Of a DNA stretch of 12,962 bases, positions 4,505-12,962 are shown piece after piece. The position numbers and the translations under genes are program-made. Origin of the DNA: Clostridia bacterium (GTDB lineage Bacteria; Bacillota; Clostridia; RGIG8785); assembly GCA_017620795.1 (NCBI GenBank), contig JAGAUM010000131.1, positions 1 through 12,962 on the forward strand. Reading direction: 5' to 3'. The notes under the pieces were generated by a model. The model had not been told where the DNA came from. It saw only the letters and a program-made list of their open reading frames with translations, and did not search any database. Each line of letters begins with the position of its first letter. The stretch's first letter is position 1.

Positions 4505-5177
4505 TTTCGGAAACGATTGGGATCAGGTCTTAAAAGGTGAGTTTGACATGCCCTACTACCTGCAACTCCGTCAGTTTTTGGTGGAAGAGTATCGGACCCA
4601 TCGGATTCATCCCCACATGAACGATATTTTCAACGCCTTAAAGTGGACGGCTTACCATGACGTCAAAGTGGTGATTTTGGGTCAGGACCCCTACCACGGC
4701 TTAAACCAAGCCCACGGCCTGTCCTTTTCCGTCAAGCCCGGAGTGCAGACTCCTCCATCCCTGGTAAATATCTATAAAGAATTGCAGACTGACTGCGGTT
4801 GCTTTATCCCCGATAACGGGTATTTAGAGTCCTGGGCAAGGCAGGGCGTATTGCTTTTGAATGCCGCCCTAACCGTCCGTGACGGGCTTGCCGCCTCCCA
4901 CCGTGGCAAAGGCTGGGAACAGTTTACCGATCGGGTCATGGCACTATTAAACGAGCGAGAAGACCCCATTGTATTTTTGCTTTGGGGAAGTCATGCCAAA
5001 GAGAAAGCAGCACAGATTACCGCGCCGCAACATCGACTGTTAACCGCTCCGCATCCCAGTCCCCTATCGGCACACCGCGGATTTTTCGGGTGCAAGCATT
5101 TTTCCAAAGCAAACCTGCTCCTAAAAAGCTGGGGCAAAACCCCCATCGATTGGCAAATCCCCAATTTGAACAACTAA
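4497..5177 (+). CDS. ung: Uracil-DNA glycosylase, family 1
   Basis: Ung removes uracil from DNA and starts base excision repair. The protein of 226 residues carries the catalytic water-activating motif GQDPYHG (62-68, Asp64), the [14 protein letters not shown] segment, [18 protein letters not shown], and the minor-groove [11 protein letters not shown] motif with His186, so all family-1 hallmarks are intact. I chose GTG 4497 because GAGGA lies eight bases upstream. A TTG at 4482 would add five residues but has poor spacing. The GTG start overlaps the preceding stop by eight bases, indicating translational coupling. It is the last gene of the operon; its stop is followed at once by a strong terminator. 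Confidence 0.97.
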
Positions 5178-5178
5178 C

Positions 5179-5208
5179 AAAAAAGACCTGCTTTTGCAGG
5201 TCTTTTTT
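5179..5208. terminator. Shared bidirectional terminator between ung and protein A
   Basis: A perfect 13-base-pair stem (5179-5191 with 5196-5208) with a TTTT loop has a core of GACCTGC and is flanked by A-runs and T-runs, so it gives a U-tract on either strand. It begins two bases after the ung stop (5175-5177), and the protein A stop codon (5208-5210) forms part of its other arm. It serves both convergent transcripts. Confidence 0.93.
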
Positions 5209-8200
5209 TATAGTCCTATGACGTTTTTTACGTCTTCTGCGAGCGCTACGCCGCGACCGTCGGTAAAGCGGTTTCCGACACCGCGGACGTCGGTACTGTT
5301 AAAGACGGTGATGGCAGGATACGTTTTAAAGTTGTATTCTTCCGCATCCTCGGCTCTCGGGCCGAAGGTATTGTTCTTTAAGGTAAGCCCCGTCACGCAG
5401 GAGGCAATGATGTCCTGTCTGTACTGCCCTTCAAAGGTGCTGTTTTCAATAACGATATTGCGATGGTCCTGCCCCGTATAGCCGATCAGAGAGATGGCGC
5501 AGGTATCCTCGGTTCCCGAAAGCTCAATATTCGTTCCGCAGTTTTTGAAGGTACAACCCCTCACCGTTGCGTTTTGGACGTAACCGCCCTCGCCCCAGTC
5601 CACTTCGGGTTCGAACTTGATGGCGGACACCGTGATATTTTCAAATGTGCAGTTTTCGATCAGCATATCGTTGGAATGGGTCAAAATCGCCCGCGGATGG
5701 ATGTTGGAATAGGTGCAGTTCCGAACGACCATCCCGTTGCCTGCCAAGGATACGTTCACACTCAGATATCGGGGCTCCACCGAAACGGCTTGGTCCAACG
5801 TCACCCGATAAAACCACGGGAAGGATTGCTCTGCGCCGCCGACTGCCGACTCGGTCAAGGAAACACTCGGAACAAAGTCGGTTTTTTCCACGCTTTTTAT
5901 CTTCGCTTCCGCTACCTGAACGTTATCGGGAGTTGAAAAGCGAACGGTATCGCCGACGTTTAAAAGCCCGTCCCGATTCATGGACATGCCGATGATAACC
6001 GTCTTTTCATTCTCCTGTGCGGCAACCCGTCCGTAAAAGCTTGTAATATCCAGCGTATCGTCGCTGGTACGGGAAAAGGTACAGTTCTCAATCAGAGGGC
6101 CTTTTTTCACCGAGGCGATAAAGATGCCGCCGCCGATACTGATGGCGCGGCCGTACTCTGCGCCGACGGGCGCCGGTCCGTCACCGATTTTTAAATTGCG
6201 GTAGACACTTCCTCCCGTTCCGTAGGCCTCTAAAATACCGCCGTTCCCGCTGTAAATGTTACAGTCGTTATAGGTAATCGGTCCGCATTCGTGGACTTCA
6301 AATCCCACTGCACGTTTACACATACCGCTGGCAACGGTGCCGACTTTGATCTGCTCCATCCGTTTTTGGGCGTTGTCCGGGCTGTCGTAGCAAAAGACCC
6401 GATAGCGGTACTGCCCGATCTTTTGAATGTCGTCACCCATGGCAGCGGTATTGGGAATACGACGCAGATTTTCATCAAAATAGCCAATGGCAGGATTGGC
6501 TTCTGCCACCATGTTGTCCAGTAAGTGATGCGGATAGCTCGGGTCTAACTTCAGAATATAAGAACGGCGGTCACGGGCAATTTCCTGTACCGTACCCTGG
6601 AAATAGGAAAGGCGCTGATTATCCAGAGTCAAACCGTTAAAGGTCAGATTTTCACAATCACGAAGAACAAAGCCGGGCACCGTCGGGTTTTCCCAAAGGA
6701 GGATGGTGTCGTAGCCGTTGACGGTAAAATCCTTCATGCTCTTTAAGGCGATATGCCCTTGTTTTCCGCCGTCATCCACCCGATAAACGCCCTTGGGTAG
6801 GGTAACCGACTTCTTTCCTGCGGCATAAGCATCCGTAATCAGCTTTTCGATATCCACCTGCGCATACTCCGCGGCGCCGTACATCTCGTTATAGCTTCCT
6901 TCGACCGGCGGTGTGTTCACCAGAGTTAAAAGACGGTGGATAATGACGGCGCTTTCGGCACGGGTCGCCGTCGCCTTGGGCGCAAAGGTGTTATCAGGGT
7001 TGCCTAAAATCAAACCGTTTTCAACCGCATGTCCCACCTTGTCCTTTGCCCAACTCTCAACCGCATAGGCGTCCGAAAAAGCGGATAAATCCGCCTGCTT
7101 CATCGGAAGGAATCGCTCGTTTAAAAGGGCGTCGGTCAGAATAACCGTCATCTCTTCACGGGTAATGGGGGCGTCGGGGTTGAATCGGTTATCGGGGGTC
7201 AGCTCATCCGCAATCAAATCCCTTGCAAAAGCATCAAATACCCCTTCGGCATACCATGCGCCAAAAGGCACGTCGGCATAAAAAGGTTGAAAGTCCACGT
7301 GCGGAACCGACAAGGCACGGTTGACCATGGACACAAACTCCGCACGGGTAACCGAGGCTTCGGGGTCAAAGCGTCCGTCCGCCTTGCCGTTAATCACGCC
7401 TTCTTTATAAAGGTTTCGGACGGCTTCTTCTGCCCAATGTCCCGAAATATCGGAAAGCTCCGCCGTGTTACCGAGCAAGTCTTCGACACCGCTGACGTAG
7501 CAAACGGCAGGGTCGATCAAAACCCCGTCGTCGCTCTGGTTTTTCAAAGCACTGACTCGAAAACGAATCCGGTCCCCTTTTTGAACCCGAATGACAAATT
7601 CAGGTAAGGTCAAGGTCTTTCGGGGCAAAACCGAAACAAACCCTTTTTGGGGGTAAAGGCGGGTATTGTTCTTCAAAATCGCAATACCCACGCCGTCCCC
7701 GCTGCCGGCATTTTGGTGGTCTAAGGTCAGGGGCAAAACGGCCAGATAGCCGTCTTTTGGGCATTGGTAGGAAAAAACGGCATCACCGCCCACACCGGGA
7801 TGGGCGGCACCGGGGGCTTGAACGGCGCCCGAGGTCCAGTTATTCAGCTCCCCGCTGAACCAGCCGTATTGGATAAAGTCCAGATCATGATACTCGTTTT
7901 GGTTGGGCGTAACGTTTTGAAAATACCAGGAAGAAGTTTCTTCCTGTCTTGAAAAATCATCCGACGAACGGCTGACGGGTTCTTTGACCGCGTCAGAAGG
8001 AATCGGTGAAACCACACTGGCCGAAAAGGACGGGGCCTGTTTTTTCTGCAGGTAGGAAATGGTCTGGGTCCAATCCAAAAGATCAGCGTCGCTGTTGCCC
8101 AAACGGTTTAAACGAAAACGGATGACGTCCCCCGCGCGAACGTTATACACCAGGTCGGGAAGAGTCGCGCTCTTCCCGGGTAACAGCTTCAGCCAGCCGT

Positions 8201-8615
8201 TTGCGGGGTAGATTGACGTTTCGTTACAGGTGATGCAAAGCTGAACGCCGTCACCTTGATCGCTTTTAGTCAAGGTCGTGCCGTGGATCAAAATCTCACC
8301 GTCCGACGGGGCGGTAAATGCGACTACTGCATCCGACGCCTCCCCCGCAGACATCCCCTTTCCCGATTGCACGGCACCTTCGTCCCAATTGAAATTCTTC
8401 TCATAAAACCAACCGCTTTTGAAGCAGGACAGCGGCAAATACTCCCCGTCTTTGGCACAGAAAAAAGACCAAGGCGTAGCATTTTCGGGTCTTGAAAAGC
8501 CTTCTTCCCGACGGTATACACAGACAGCTTCCGCTTCGTTCGGAACGTCTTCTGCCAAAATCGGCATGATGGGTAATAACAGAACTGTTAAAACCAAAGA
8601 TAAAAGTTTTTTCAT
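5208..8615 (-). CDS. Secreted SLH-domain protein with right-handed beta-helix (protein A)
   Basis: This 1135-residue surface protein starts with a signal peptide (KK, hydrophobic core, likely cut after Ala21 of PILA). Two beta modules follow (about 33-190 and 217-374), each ending in a GD(V/R)IRFR strand. Three SLH repeats (about 386-566) with TRAE, TREE and TRAE motifs should bind pyruvylated secondary wall polymer. The rest (about 587-1135) is a parallel beta-helix opening with VDIEKLITDAYAAGKKSVTLPKGVYRV, with NCTF-type coils and an inserted beta domain (about 865-950). DD at 852-853 in SDDTLDITSFYGRV matches the Asp-Asp region of GH110-like enzymes. AGGAGG lies seven bases before the ATG. 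It is a paralogue of protein B next door, with one beta module fewer and a cysteine-rich first module. It could be a glycan-degrading or glycan-binding surface protein; the activity is not proven. Confidence 0.95.
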   Translation of the reverse strand: MKKLLSLVLTVLLLPIMPILAEDVPNEAEAVCVYRREEGFSRPENATPWSFFCAKDGEYLPLSCFKSGWFYEKNFNWDEGAVQSGKGMSAGEASDAVVAFTAPSDGEILIHGTTLTKSDQGDGVQLCITCNETSIYPANGWLKLLPGKSATLPDLVYNVRAGDVIRFRLNRLGNSDADLLDWTQTISYLQKKQAPSFSASVVSPIPSDAVKEPVSRSSDDFSRQEETSSWYFQNVTPNQNEYHDLDFIQYGWFSGELNNWTSGAVQAPGAAHPGVGGDAVFSYQCPKDGYLAVLPLTLDHQNAGSGDGVGIAILKNNTRLYPQKGFVSVLPRKTLTLPEFVIRVQKGDRIRFRVSALKNQSDDGVLIDPAVCYVSGVEDLLGNTAELSDISGHWAEEAVRNLYKEGVINGKADGRFDPEASVTRAEFVSMVNRALSVPHVDFQPFYADVPFGAWYAEGVFDAFARDLIADELTPDNRFNPDAPITREEMTVILTDALLNERFLPMKQADLSAFSDAYAVESWAKDKVGHAVENGLILGNPDNTFAPKATATRAESAVIIHRLLTLVNTPPVEGSYNEMYGAAEYAQVDIEKLITDAYAAGKKSVTLPKGVYRVDDGGKQGHIALKSMKDFTVNGYDTILLWENPTVPGFVLRDCENLTFNGLTLDNQRLSYFQGTVQEIARDRRSYILKLDPSYPHHLLDNMVAEANPAIGYFDENLRRIPNTAAMGDDIQKIGQYRYRVFCYDSPDNAQKRMEQIKVGTVASGMCKRAVGFEVHECGPITYNDCNIYSGNGGILEAYGTGGSVYRNLKIGDGPAPVGAEYGRAISIGGGIFIASVKKGPLIENCTFSRTSDDTLDITSFYGRVAAQENEKTVIIGMSMNRDGLLNVGDTVRFSTPDNVQVAEAKIKSVEKTDFVPSVSLTESAVGGAEQSFPWFYRVTLDQAVSVEPRYLSVNVSLAGNGMVVRNCTYSNIHPRAILTHSNDMLIENCTFENITVSAIKFEPEVDWGEGGYVQNATVRGCTFKNCGTNIELSGTEDTCAISLIGYTGQDHRNIVIENSTFEGQYRQDIIASCVTGLTLKNNTFGPRAEDAEEYNFKTYPAITVFNSTDVRGVGNRFTDGRGVALAEDVKNVIGL

Positions 8616-8636
8616 CCGCTCACCTCCTTTGATTCT

Positions 8637-8665
8637 ATTATAAAAAAAGAGCTTGAAAAATTCAA
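8637..8665 (-). promoter_or_regulatory. Promoter of protein A, embedded in the upstream terminator
   Basis: On the minus strand, TTGAAT (8660-8665) lies 17 bases from a perfect TATAAT (8637-8642). The -35 box lies in the loop and right arm of the protein B terminator and the -10 begins on the last T of its U-tract. The predicted leader is about 15 bases, starting almost at the AAAGGAGGTGA ribosome site. The 69-base gap leaves no other room for a promoter. Confidence 0.65.
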
Positions 8666-8675
8666 GCTCTTTTTT
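8643..8675 (-). terminator. Terminator of protein B
   Basis: The hairpin has arms GAGCTTGAA and TTCAAGCTC (8649-8657 and 8661-8669) around a three-base loop, extended by A:T pairs, and ends in seven T on the minus strand. It starts ten bases after the protein B stop codon (TGA, 8685-8687). Confidence 0.9.
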
Positions 8676-8684
8676 CGTTCAGGC

Positions 8685-11600
8685 TCAGATACCGGTGACG
8701 TTGGTGGCTTTTTCGCCGACCTTGACGCCGTTTGCGGCGGAGTTGAAGGTGTTGCCTTCTAACTTGACCTTATCCGACTTGTCAATGTCTACTGCAGGAT
8801 ATGCCACAGGGTTTTCGGGGTTATGAGCGTTGAAGATGTTATTCTTCAAGGTCATGTTGGTTGCGCAGTTGATAATGACGTCGTTGTAGTAGGTGTTATT
8901 GAAGGTGTTGCCTTCAAAGACGATGTTCTTGTGGTTCTGACCTTCATAGCCCATCAGTGCCAGAGCGGCGCCATCTTTCATGGAGTATGCACAACCATTG
9001 AAGGTGCAGCCTTTGATGGTGGTGTTATGAACGTATCCGCTTTCGCCCCAGTCTACTTCGGGATCCATCAGAATTGCATAGCGCATGGAGCCTGTAAAGG
9101 TACAGTTTTCAATCAGTGCGTTATTGGCGTGGAGCATGATGGACCGGGGCATGTTATACTCGAACTTGGAGTTCTTGATCACCAGACCGTCTGCAGCCAT
9201 GGTCGCATCCTCAAACAGGTCTCGGGCACTGACAGAAACCTTCTTATCCAGCTTCATCTTGTAGTAGTGGTTGTGGTTTACGGTGGTACCGGTAACACTT
9301 CTGAAGGACAGGTCAACAGGCGAGGTGTAACCGCTTAACTTCTCGAAGGAAACAATCTTGGCAGAGCCCTTATCCAAGTAACCGGTCTTGGTGTTCTCGT
9401 CCGTTTCGGTGGCGAAGCGAACCTCGTCCCCTGCCTTGAAGATATCGTAGTTATAACGCATACCAATGATAACGGTGGTATCGTCTACCTGCTCGGCAAC
9501 GCGGCCGTAGACCGAGTGGATGTTGATGCCGTCATCATTGTTGCGGACAACACTGATGTTGTTCATCTGCATACCCTGACGGACGTTACGGATGAAGATG
9601 CCCGTACCCGTAATGGAGAAGAGTCTGGAGTGCTGTGCACCGTCGGGAGTGGGGCCGGGAATGAAGTGGACGTTATCTAAGATGGTACCACCCTCCGAGT
9701 CGCCCTCGTTGATGCCCAAAAGACCGGTGTAGATGTTACAATCGTTCAGCTTGATGCCGTAAGATGCAGTGATGTTGAAGTTGGTACCCGACTTGGCACG
9801 CTCGCCAACCAGATAGCCAGGCTTTAACTTGGGAGCAACATCGCTACGGCTGAAGTACATACGATACTTGTACTGACCAATCTTCTCGTAAGAAGCGATA
9901 TGGCCACGGTCGTTGAGGTTCTTTACAGGAATCGCCTGATCGTCAAAGAACCGTGCGTTGATGGTATCGGTATAGAAATTGGCAGTATCCAGGAAATGAT
10001 GGGGATATGCAGGGTCTAACTCGATATCTGCATAGCGGTTGTCATCTGCCAGAGCAATGACCTTGCCTTGGTAGAAGCCACACTCCTCAAAATCGGTATT
10101 AAGACCGACGAAAGAGACGTTTTCACAGTTGGAAATGTCGATACCAACGCCAGTGGGATTCTCGAAAATCAAAGTGGTGTTCTGACCCTTGACGGTGAAG
10201 TCCTTCATGCCCGTCATCTTAATGTGCTTACCGCCCTTGAAGGGAACCAGATAAGCGCCTGCAGGCAGTAAGACTTCCTTTGCACCGCTTGCATAGGCGT
10301 CGTTAATCATCTTGTCGATGTCCACTTCGGTATAGAAAGGCGCATCGTAGGTTTTAGAGTAGGTGCCTTCTGCATCCTTGGTTTCGGTTGCAGTTAAGAA
10401 GCGGTTTAAGATGACTGCCGCTTCGGCACGGGAAATGGTATTCTTCGGTGCGAAGGTGCCATCGGGGTTGCCTAAAATCAAGCCCAGAGAAACGGCCTGT
10501 GCAATAGAGGGGCGAACCCATTCAGCACACTGTGCAGCGTCGGTGAACTTGGACAAATCACCCTCACCTAGGGCACGGAACTTCTTGTTCTGCATGGTAT
10601 CCACCATGATGCCCGTTGCTTCTTCACGGAGCAGGGGTTGGTCGGGCAGGAAGTTGCCGTCGACTACCAGCTCGTCTGCAATCAGGTCAAAGGCGAATGC
10701 CGCATTGATGGTGTTGGTAAACCAAGAACCCAAGGGTACGTCGGGGAAATAATCCTTATGGGGAACGTTTTGAATCTTGGCAGCTTTCTGAACCATGGTC
10801 AAGAACTCTGCACGGGTAACGCGCGCTTCGGGGTCGAAGATGCCTTCGGACTTGCCCACAACGATACCTTTGTGGAAAAGGTTTTCAACCGCTTCTCTTG
10901 CCCAGTGGTCGGTCAGGTCGGTAAACAGAGCCTTTTCAACTACTTCGCCCATGCCATCAATATAGCAAACGGTGGGTTCCCAAACCAGCATGTCGGCAGT
11001 CTGAGAAGCGTTGCAGTTGGCACGGAAATAAATCTTGTCGCCCTTCTTAACAGGGAATACCAGGTTGGGAATCTTCACCTGCTTACCGGGTTTGATTTCA
11101 ACCATTGCCATGTCGGGGTAAATGTTCTGGTCGTTCTTTAAGATGCAGAACTTATTACCGTCCCTGCTATTTGCACGGGTTTCAGCAACATTCTCCAGCA
11201 GTACAATGGTACCGTCCTTCGGGCAGGTATAGGTATAACAAGCGTCGTTTGCCTCACCTGCGCTTAAGGCACGGCGGTAGGGTGCAGCACCCGATCTCCA
11301 GTTCATGTAAGTGTCAACATACCAACCGCTTTGGATGTACTCCATGTCGGTGTAATCATTAAGACCGATGGGGGTAACCTGGAACTTCCAATCGGTGCCC
11401 TCGGTGCCTTCAAAAGCAGAAACAGGAGTGGTACCCTCGCTTAAAATGGCGCCCTCGGGAATCGTGGTGGAAACCCCTGAAGCAGGAACTACATTGGAAG
11501 CGTCCATCAAATAAGAGATGGTCTTTTCCCAATGGATGCCGTCTGCGCTCTGGTTTTCAATGCAGTTGACACGGAAACGGATTACATCGCCTTTCTTTAC

Positions 11601-12674
11601 TTTAAAGACGATGTCGGGCAGTTCCACAACCTGACCGGGCAGTACTTGCGCCCAGCCAAGAGACGGGTAAACCTGTTGATTGTTCTTTAAAATCTTCAAC
11701 TGGACACCGTCACCCAGCGTGGAGCTGGTCTTGTCCGCCTTGGTTGCGTGAATCAGCACGGTACCGTCAATGGGGGCAGTAAAGGAAACAACGGGGTCTG
11801 CAATCATGCCTGCGTGCATGCTCAAAGGATGCTGAACAGTACCCTGTGCCCAGTTCTGATACTCGCCCGAGTACCAGCCGTTTTGGATGAACTCCAACGG
11901 CTCATAATTATCGGTGTTGACAACGGCATGCTCAAAGCCCCAGGGCGTTTCGCCCGGATTCTTGGCAAAACCGTCTGCAACGGTGTAGGTAGTGGCAATG
12001 GTCATGTCCTCGGGTTGCTCGAAAGTAACATCCTCCACAGGCTGTGCCATGGCTTCTTTGCCCAAGTAGGAAATCTTCTTCTCCCAACGGATGCCATCTG
12101 CGGTCTGGTTTCCAATGCAGTTGACACGGAAGCGAATGACGTCGCCCTTTTTCACGTCAAAGACCAAATTGGGCAGTTCGACAGTCGCACCAGGCTCAAC
12201 AACAACCCAGTCTTCTGCAGGATAAACCTGCTCGCTGTTTCTCAAAATCTTCAACTGGACACCGTCGCCCAACATAGAGCTGGTCTTGTCTGCCTTGGAG
12301 GCATGAATCATAATCGTACCGTCAATGGGAGCGGTAAAGGCAACAACAGGGTCAGCAGCCATACCTGCGTGCATGCTCAAATAGTGTTGAACAGCACCCT
12401 GTGCCCAGTTCTGGTAGGATTCATAATACCAACCGCTGTCGATAAACTCCAACGGCTCGTAATTGTCCTTTTCAACGGTGGCATGCTCAAAGGACCAAGG
12501 AGTGGAACCCGCCTTCTTGTAAAAGCCGTCTTCCACGCTGTAAGTCACCTGAACATTCGTGCCAGAAGGTTGTTCTTCAGTAACAAAGGATGCGGCACTG
12601 TACGATTCTTGCGCCCATACAGCAGGCACAGGAAGCATGCACAATACCAGCAAGAAACACAATAATTTTTTCAT
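8685..12674 (-). CDS. Large secreted SLH-domain protein with right-handed beta-helix (protein B)
   Basis: This 1329-residue paralogue of protein A has a signal peptide likely cut after Ala21 (AVWA), then three beta modules (about 43-204, 228-389 and 412-573). The first two are near-copies sharing EPLEFI, WAQG, LSMHAGM, FTAPIDGT, LGDGVQLKIL and KKGDVIRFRVNCI. Three SLH repeats follow (about 583-762) with TRAE, a weak LREE, and SRAE. The beta-helix (about 785-1329) opens with VDIDKMINDAYASGAKEVLLPAGAYLV and carries NDDGINIHSVYGRV (DD 1047-1048), DPEVDWGESGYV and repeated NCTF/GNTF coils. No sortase motif or lipobox is seen; anchoring should be through the SLH repeats. The ATG is set by AAAGGAG nine bases upstream. 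A consensus promoter and a bias to C-ending codons and AAG suggest high expression. Family knowledge says surface anchoring; a role in host or dietary glycan use is inference. Confidence 0.95.
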   Translation of the reverse strand: MKKLLCFLLVLCMLPVPAVWAQESYSAASFVTEEQPSGTNVQVTYSVEDGFYKKAGSTPWSFEHATVEKDNYEPLEFIDSGWYYESYQNWAQGAVQHYLSMHAGMAADPVVAFTAPIDGTIMIHASKADKTSSMLGDGVQLKILRNSEQVYPAEDWVVVEPGATVELPNLVFDVKKGDVIRFRVNCIGNQTADGIRWEKKISYLGKEAMAQPVEDVTFEQPEDMTIATTYTVADGFAKNPGETPWGFEHAVVNTDNYEPLEFIQNGWYSGEYQNWAQGTVQHPLSMHAGMIADPVVSFTAPIDGTVLIHATKADKTSSTLGDGVQLKILKNNQQVYPSLGWAQVLPGQVVELPDIVFKVKKGDVIRFRVNCIENQSADGIHWEKTISYLMDASNVVPASGVSTTIPEGAILSEGTTPVSAFEGTEGTDWKFQVTPIGLNDYTDMEYIQSGWYVDTYMNWRSGAAPYRRALSAGEANDACYTYTCPKDGTIVLLENVAETRANSRDGNKFCILKNDQNIYPDMAMVEIKPGKQVKIPNLVFPVKKGDKIYFRANCNASQTADMLVWEPTVCYIDGMGEVVEKALFTDLTDHWAREAVENLFHKGIVVGKSEGIFDPEARVTRAEFLTMVQKAAKIQNVPHKDYFPDVPLGSWFTNTINAAFAFDLIADELVVDGNFLPDQPLLREEATGIMVDTMQNKKFRALGEGDLSKFTDAAQCAEWVRPSIAQAVSLGLILGNPDGTFAPKNTISRAEAAVILNRFLTATETKDAEGTYSKTYDAPFYTEVDIDKMINDAYASGAKEVLLPAGAYLVPFKGGKHIKMTGMKDFTVKGQNTTLIFENPTGVGIDISNCENVSFVGLNTDFEECGFYQGKVIALADDNRYADIELDPAYPHHFLDTANFYTDTINARFFDDQAIPVKNLNDRGHIASYEKIGQYKYRMYFSRSDVAPKLKPGYLVGERAKSGTNFNITASYGIKLNDCNIYTGLLGINEGDSEGGTILDNVHFIPGPTPDGAQHSRLFSITGTGIFIRNVRQGMQMNNISVVRNNDDGINIHSVYGRVAEQVDDTTVIIGMRYNYDIFKAGDEVRFATETDENTKTGYLDKGSAKIVSFEKLSGYTSPVDLSFRSVTGTTVNHNHYYKMKLDKKVSVSARDLFEDATMAADGLVIKNSKFEYNMPRSIMLHANNALIENCTFTGSMRYAILMDPEVDWGESGYVHNTTIKGCTFNGCAYSMKDGAALALMGYEGQNHKNIVFEGNTFNNTYYNDVIINCATNMTLKNNIFNAHNPENPVAYPAVDIDKSDKVKLEGNTFNSAANGVKVGEKATNVTGI
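11508..12548 (-). repeat. Tandem duplication, 555-base period, encoding beta modules 1 and 2 of protein B
   Basis: Modules 1 (12063-12548) and 2 (11508-11993) are offset by exactly 555 bases. For example, AATCTTCAACTGGACACCGT occurs at 11691 and again at 12246 on the plus strand, followed by further close similarity. Protein identity is high by eye, whereas module 3 (about 10956-11441) and the two modules of protein A are far more diverged. This indicates a recent in-frame duplication within protein B. Confidence 0.9.
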
Positions 12675-12697
12675 TTCAAACCTCTCCTTTCCCCTTT

Positions 12698-12727
12698 ATT
12701 ATAATAAATTGGCGGGAGAAGTGTCAA
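12698..12727 (-). promoter_or_regulatory. Strong consensus promoter of protein B
   Basis: On the minus strand, perfect TTGACA (12722-12727) and perfect TATAAT (12698-12703) boxes are 18 bases apart. The transcript would begin about 17 bases before the ATG, almost directly at the AAAGGAGAGG ribosome site, leaving no room for a riboswitch or attenuator. Confidence 0.85.
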
Positions 12728-12741
12728 TGACCAATTTTAGA

Positions 12742-12777
12742 TAGAGCAAGAACTGCCATTTTTAGAGCAAGAATTGC
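12742..12777 (-). repeat. 15-base direct repeat upstream of the protein B promoter, operator-like
   Basis: TAGAGCAAGAACTGC (12742-12756) and TAGAGCAAGAATTGC (12763-12777) differ at one base and are 21 bases apart, two turns of the helix. On the minus strand they read GCAGTTCTTGCTCTA and GCAATTCTTGCTCTA. The nearer copy ends 14 bases before the -35 box. The layout and the CAGTTCT core resemble direct-repeat sites of LytTR-type response regulators such as VirR, but the match is partial. Confidence 0.6.
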
Positions 12778-12781
12778 AATA

Positions 12782-12815
12782 AAAAAAGAACCTGCCCGAA
12801 AGCAGGTTCTTTTTT
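12782..12815 (-). terminator. Terminator of the third paralogue
   Basis: A 14-base-pair stem (12782-12795 with 12802-12815) with core GAACCTGC, a six-base loop and A/T flanks ends in a T-run on the minus strand. It begins seven bases after the stop codon of the gene entering from the right, so protein B must be transcribed from its own promoter. The T-run on the plus strand is shorter. Confidence 0.9.
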
Positions 12816-12822
12816 CTGTTGT

Positions 12823-12962
12823 TTAGAGTCCGCTGACTCCCGTTACCGTGTCAGTAGTCTTTACCTCACGGACGAAGGTGTTACCCTCAAACTTTACTCC
12901 GTTAGACTGGTCCAGCTTCACCGACGGAGTCTTTTCGTAATCCTCGTTAGCGACACCGAAGG
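12823..12962 (-). CDS. C-terminal end of a third beta-helix paralogue (runs off right edge)
   Basis: The last 45 codons and a TAA stop (12823-12825) of a gene entering from the right are visible. The peptide contains TPSVKLDQSNGVKFEGNTF and ends TVTGVSGL. It aligns with the ends of protein B (VDIDKSDKVKLEGNTF ... NVTGI) and protein A (ITVFNSTDVRGVGNRF ... NVIGL). The final beta-helix coil and the closing V-x-G-(I/L) tail are shared by all three. It looks closer to B than to A. The fragment is too short for the ORF length to prove coding by itself; homology, frame and the terminator behind it carry the call. Whether it has SLH repeats cannot be seen. Confidence 0.85.
   Translation of the reverse strand, partial: FGVANEDYEKTPSVKLDQSNGVKFEGNTFVREVKTTDTVTGVSGL

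Follow-up and report, generated by a model that had tools for sequence, protein, structure and literature searches.

Tandem genes for predicted wall-anchored proteins with a GH110-like beta-helix in a Clostridia-type bacterium

The window analysed here is one entire contig of 12,962 nucleotides (contig C212; JAGAUM010000131.1) from a metagenome-assembled genome of a Clostridia bacterium (1.2 Mb, 253 contigs, about 63% complete). Three adjacent minus-strand genes, transcribed in the order gene 3, B, A, occupy its right part (Table 1). The two complete genes encode predicted surface proteins which combine S-layer homology (SLH) repeats with a beta-helix resembling that of the GH110 glycosidases. 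Gene 3 is cut at the right contig edge (12962), and the array thus reaches that edge, as the original prediction from the sequence had stated; the edge is an assembly break, and copies are counted within the contig.

Table 1. Features of the array, listed in the direction of transcription.
Feature	Position	Strand	Remarks
Gene 3, 3' end	12823..12960	minus	45 codons + stop; remainder past contig edge
Terminator after gene 3	12782..12815	minus	Fold -21.5 kcal/mol, z -7.2
Promoter-like site of B	12698..12727	minus	TTGACA-18-TATAAT, 12/12
Gene B	8685..12674	minus	Full open reading frame (ORF), 1329 aa
N-terminal module 1 of B	12033..12584	minus	Modelled jelly roll
N-terminal module 2 of B	11499..12023	minus	70% identical to module 1
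N-terminal module 3 of B	10959..11462	minus	
SLH region of B	10389..10928	minus	Three Pfam stretches
GH110-like beta-helix of B	8688..10385	minus	Residues 764-1329
Asp-Asp pair of B	9531..9536	minus	Residues 1047-1048; D344/D345 of PdGH110B
Terminator after B	8642..8676	minus	Fold -18.6 kcal/mol, z -5.8
Promoter-like site of A	8637..8665	minus	TTGAAT-17-TATAAT, 10/12; overlaps B terminator
Gene A	5208..8615	minus	Full ORF, 1135 aa
N-terminal module 1 of A	8046..8543	minus	
N-terminal module 2 of A	7482..7982	minus	
Three SLH repeats of A	6954..7454	minus	PF00395 at 7335-7454, 7149-7199, 6954-7079
GH110-like beta-helix of A	5211..6908	minus	Residues 570-1135; profile A1 vs GH110 structures; 42% to B
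Asp-Asp pair of A	6057..6062	minus	Residues 852-853; D344/D345 of PdGH110B; then TLDIT, usually GIN(V/I)H
Terminator after A	5179..5208	minus	Fold -18.6 kcal/mol, z -6.3; between converging A and ung ends

Architecture and active site

The products of A and B each begin with a signal-peptide-like stretch (identified by reading), followed by N-terminal modules, three SLH repeats and the GH110-like beta-helix. Both Pfam families score above the Pfam cut-off in A (SLH, 2.8e-29; Beta_helix, 4.5e-11) and in B (5e-28 and 7.3e-12), and a single BLASTP alignment of the two proteins has 465 identical columns out of 1153 (40%). The two had been predicted to share their whole architecture; this holds for the SLH triplet and the Beta_helix match but not for the N-terminal modules, of which B has three and A has two. 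A likely orthologue of B is P0002 (78-80% identity) and that of A is P0139 (65% across the full length).

Pfam and NCBIfam label proteins of this family as SLH plus Beta_helix at most, and some receive no label. Comparison with GH110 enzymes in the PDB, in which some 500 residues align at 16-20% identity, indicates a right-handed beta-helix. In PdGH110B, according to PMC7939477, D344 is the acid and D321 and/or D345 the base; the -1 subsite consists of W486, N85, E488, N348, E480, R265 and R453, and the +1 subsite of R451, R208 and K207. Using three PDB rows for reference, we mapped these positions in 35 rows, 17 of them from the source genome; N85 falls outside the aligned fragment. The rows divide into 18 of the window subfamily and 17 others, a split which agrees with the tree for the 16 subfamily rows present there, P0138 and P0139 having joined as relatives of A. 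Since P0138 is 99% identical to A, the mapped rows are not independent.

D344 and D345 are each kept in all 35 rows. Where the alignment reaches the site, W486 is found in 32 of 32 rows and E488 and R453 in 31 of 32 each, and all three are present throughout the subfamily (18/18 each). N348 is kept in 31 of 35 rows, including B and 15 of the 18 subfamily members, and is an aspartate in A, P0138 and P0139. The same three carry DDTLD in place of DDGIN, which marks it as a kept variant rather than a single error. E480 is found in 7 of 32 rows. The second candidate base, D321, is absent from the subfamily (0/18; glycine in A, threonine in B) and is an aspartate in 15 of the 17 other rows; paralogues on C38 and C145 are among those that carry it. 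R451 is likewise absent (0/18), while 10 of the 14 other rows reaching the site have arginine there. R265 is kept in none of the 18 and in two of 16 others reaching the site, in a locally gapped alignment.

The subfamily thus has the beta-helix, the Asp-Asp pair and residues equivalent to W486, E488 and R453 in common with the GH110 exo-alpha-1,3-galactosidases (PdGH110B, 7jw4/7jwf; GH110A, 9beh; an Akkermansia enzyme, 8pvs; AgaBb, 8yk1-3; PpaGal, 9i4f). It differs from them in lacking D321, R451 and, by sequence alignment, R265, and in the addition of SLH repeats and N-terminal modules. These losses leave some room for a non-catalytic subfamily, once GH110-like enzymes but now adhesins that bind glycans, or decoration of the S-layer, the more so as A also lacks N348 and the histidine two residues further, and as the structural neighbours include PfbA, a beta-helix adhesin. 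We consider this unlikely. The Asp-Asp pair and the three -1 subsite residues persist in every subfamily row, and D345, like D321, is named as a possible base in PMC7939477.

Transcription and extent of the array

Each of the three genes had been predicted to have its own hairpin, and A and B separate promoters; a strong terminator does follow each gene, and A and B each have a promoter-like site (Table 1). None of 200 shuffles folds as well as any of the three terminators, and none of 300 shuffles of either gap scores as high as the promoter-like site of A or of B. Positions 5000-12962 as a whole contain 10 promoter-like sites where 6.2 would be expected, and a weaker site on its own therefore carries little weight. 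At 8637-8676, in the 69-nt gap between B and A, the -35 element of A lies inside the terminator stem of B and its -10 element directly follows the T-run.

Across the genome, seven junctions between adjacent family members were compared. A terminator is present at six and a promoter-like site at five; the exceptions are C38, without a promoter-like site, and C246, without either. Of two further gaps to SLH genes, that in C118 has both elements and that in C130 neither. These counts argue that the family is mostly not one operon, as originally proposed, and the spacing of terminators and promoter-like sites suggests that gene 3, B and A are probably transcribed one by one.

The original prediction went on to suggest alternative surface proteins. 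Tandem paralogues 40% identical, most with a promoter-like site of their own, might indeed form a switchable or antigen-variation family, with coats used under different conditions or swapped by recombination, but we regard this as very improbable. No inverted repeat of at least 24 nt was found, and direct repeats of that minimum length fall into two families, one within B (76%) and one joining A and B (93 nt, 72%), which gives no support to a recombination switch. The likely orthologue that each window gene has elsewhere moreover speaks for fixed, specialised genes.

Over 45 aa, the end of gene 3 is 93% identical to the end of P0005, whose 1326 aa comprise N-terminal modules, SLH repeats and a beta-helix; it also matches P0006 (60% over 48 aa), P0004 (57%) and B (43% over 37 aa). 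Adjacent same-strand genes with related, family-type ends are therefore present as predicted, and the case of a next gene without SLH or beta-helix does not occur. That A and B are only a pair beside an unrelated gene with a chance terminal match, an idea which owes what it has to the mere 45 codons in the contig, can be dismissed almost with certainty in view of the matches to P0005, P0006 and P0004.

The family and its genome setting

In addition to gene 3, a GH110-like beta-helix domain is encoded at 20 places in the genome, several in tandem, in keeping with the predicted expansion. Of the 21 in all, 11 are uncut, while the other 10 run into a contig end (five without the 5' part, five without the 3' part); even if the cut pieces pair fully, there are at least 16 genes. 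The N-terminus encoded on C235 matches P0007 (93%) and P0005 (49%), which makes C235 probably another copy, and that on C58 is related to P0010 (76%). P0002 and P0006 lie on contigs of equal length (9695), no more than a hint that the two are neighbours. SLH matches are spread over 26 contigs and 37 contig/frame pairs. The earlier interpretation as a whole thus stands as regards expansion, tandem groups and mostly separate transcription, but it missed the GH110-like beta-helix with its glycosidase active-site residues.

In a midpoint-rooted tree of 36 rows, A, B, P0002-P0014 and C60 form one set (100/99), within which P0005 and B belong to a six-row set (100/99) and B stands beside P0002 (100/100). 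Genes that adjoin on a contig need not be sisters, as C38b, which pairs with C216b, illustrates. P0017, outside the window subfamily, groups with the PDB enzymes.

A search of the class, with at most three candidates scored per genome, matched 30 of 391 genomes, the source genome included; apart from the latter only G128 comes close (5.4e-47), the next best reaching 3.4e-20. Among 40 other genomes, all of the same class and none of the same order, 28 matched, and the matches listed involve the SLH region of B or its surroundings. Scanning genome contigs for relatives with profile A1 matched 160 stretches, none of which was confirmed, and the 19 loci obtained with a nine-row alignment profile are all distant, at 20-32% identity. 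The 56 matching plasmid records include none covering 80% of B; among the best five, the match lies around the SLH region in four cases and on the beta-helix in one.

Several relatives differ in integrity or module order. Paralogues on C216 (L046, 30-2543) and C49 (L053, 993-3494) each contain one in-frame stop (TAG and TGA, respectively), for which decay, assembly error or readthrough are all possible. An adjacent GH110-like pair on C246 (L050, 1-3767) has N-module-like C-termini, no Pfam SLH match in the second member and no terminator between the two. P0003 (1390 aa) has an additional N-module after the beta-helix, and thus a rearranged module order. In G128, of another order, L111 (135-3575) has an SLH-like region before its GH110-like beta-helix and an N-module-like stretch after it (both by reading). 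On C242 (L051, 496-3900), a SASA carbohydrate esterase domain occurs in an SLH protein that also has an N-module-like stretch.

The left part of the window contains uvrB, nrdR, ung and, by reading, uvrA, together with a protein resembling TTE1925-family mutarotases below the cut-off. Stage V sporulation protein AD scores above the cut-off on C246. Scans of the window for tRNAs and against Rfam gave no matches, nor did a PADLOC defence scan. A phage origin was rejected; the PHROG matches sit on the SLH region, the sole exception being a tail-spike match of A (6.5e-4). Aldolase and fatty-acid-isomerase matches, under the cut-off or weak, were also set aside.

Proposed function

Three PF00395 stretches are present in A and in B, and by reading every SLH repeat has the arginine of a TRAE-like motif (TRAE, TREE and TRAE in A; TRAE, LREE and SRAE in B). 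According to PMC6081394, it is Arg43 of this motif to which the pyruvate on the wall polymer binds, and the genome encodes a CsaB pyruvyl transferase (TIGR03609, 255.9 bits; cut-off 213.1). Three SLH repeats with a TRAE-type arginine are also found in the SLH trimers of the S-layer proteins Sap and SpaA (for SpaA, PMC6081394); the likeness concerns the repeats and gives no indication that A or B builds a crystalline S-layer. The N-terminal modules compare with CBM51 and other jelly-roll modules at about 10-15% identity and weak scores, and we place them in no CBM family.

In our view, it is fairly probable that these are singly transcribed tandem genes for secreted proteins held at the wall, whose jelly rolls would capture glycans while the GH110-like beta-helix trims terminal sugars. 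Each protein would be exported from the cell and dock on pyruvylated wall polymer through its three SLH repeats. Its two or three jelly-roll modules, probably carbohydrate-binding, would hold glycan chains, and the C-terminal right-handed beta-helix would cut sugars from their ends. These sugars are most likely galactose-like, and the mechanism would be an inverting one that relies on the conserved Asp-Asp pair. The released sugars would then feed the cell at its surface.

A galactose-type substrate is our best guess, based on kinship with GH110, the GH35 gene which adjoins the C49 copy, and the presence of galT. Against it, galK was not found in the 63% complete genome. In A and B, the missing R451 casts doubt on Gal-alpha-1,3-Gal, the classical substrate. 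On C60 (L045, 1-2936), the gene that comes after a GH110-like one on the same strand encodes an aldolase above the eda cut-off; the next ORF resembles 2-keto-3-deoxygalactonate kinase by reading, with no NCBIfam match, and precedes glycolysis-like genes (by reading).

SLH-anchored glycosidases are known, and the window proteins appear to be a variant with a GH110-like beta-helix in tandem arrays. Cel5I from Ruminiclostridium cellulolyticum likewise joins a catalytic domain, carbohydrate-binding modules and three SLH repeats in one protein (PMC4976890); the window genome differs in its many GH110-like paralogues, several in tandem. A literature search by title and abstract opening, with subscription journals mostly outside it, gave nothing on SLH-anchored GH110-like proteins among the matches listed, and the passages of PMC8549361 that mention GH110 and S-layer homology list the two apart from each other.

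More tentatively, and with the odds somewhat against it, the subfamily (A and B plus 16 other rows, P0005 standing for gene 3) may form a distinct glycosidase family beside GH110. It would use the Asp-Asp pair as acid and base without D321, differ in +1 specificity, be displayed through SLH repeats and have diversified, by singly transcribed tandem genes, into a wall-bound glycan-trimming set.

The GH110-like assignment makes these uncharacterised surface proteins testable as glycosidases, and the presence of D321 in some rows but not in others of a single genome is a natural split through which to ask directly which base GH110-type enzymes need. The small genome of this uncultured Clostridia-type bacterium holds a large family of such genes, whose arrays point to glycan foraging by wall display as a strategy of the lineage.
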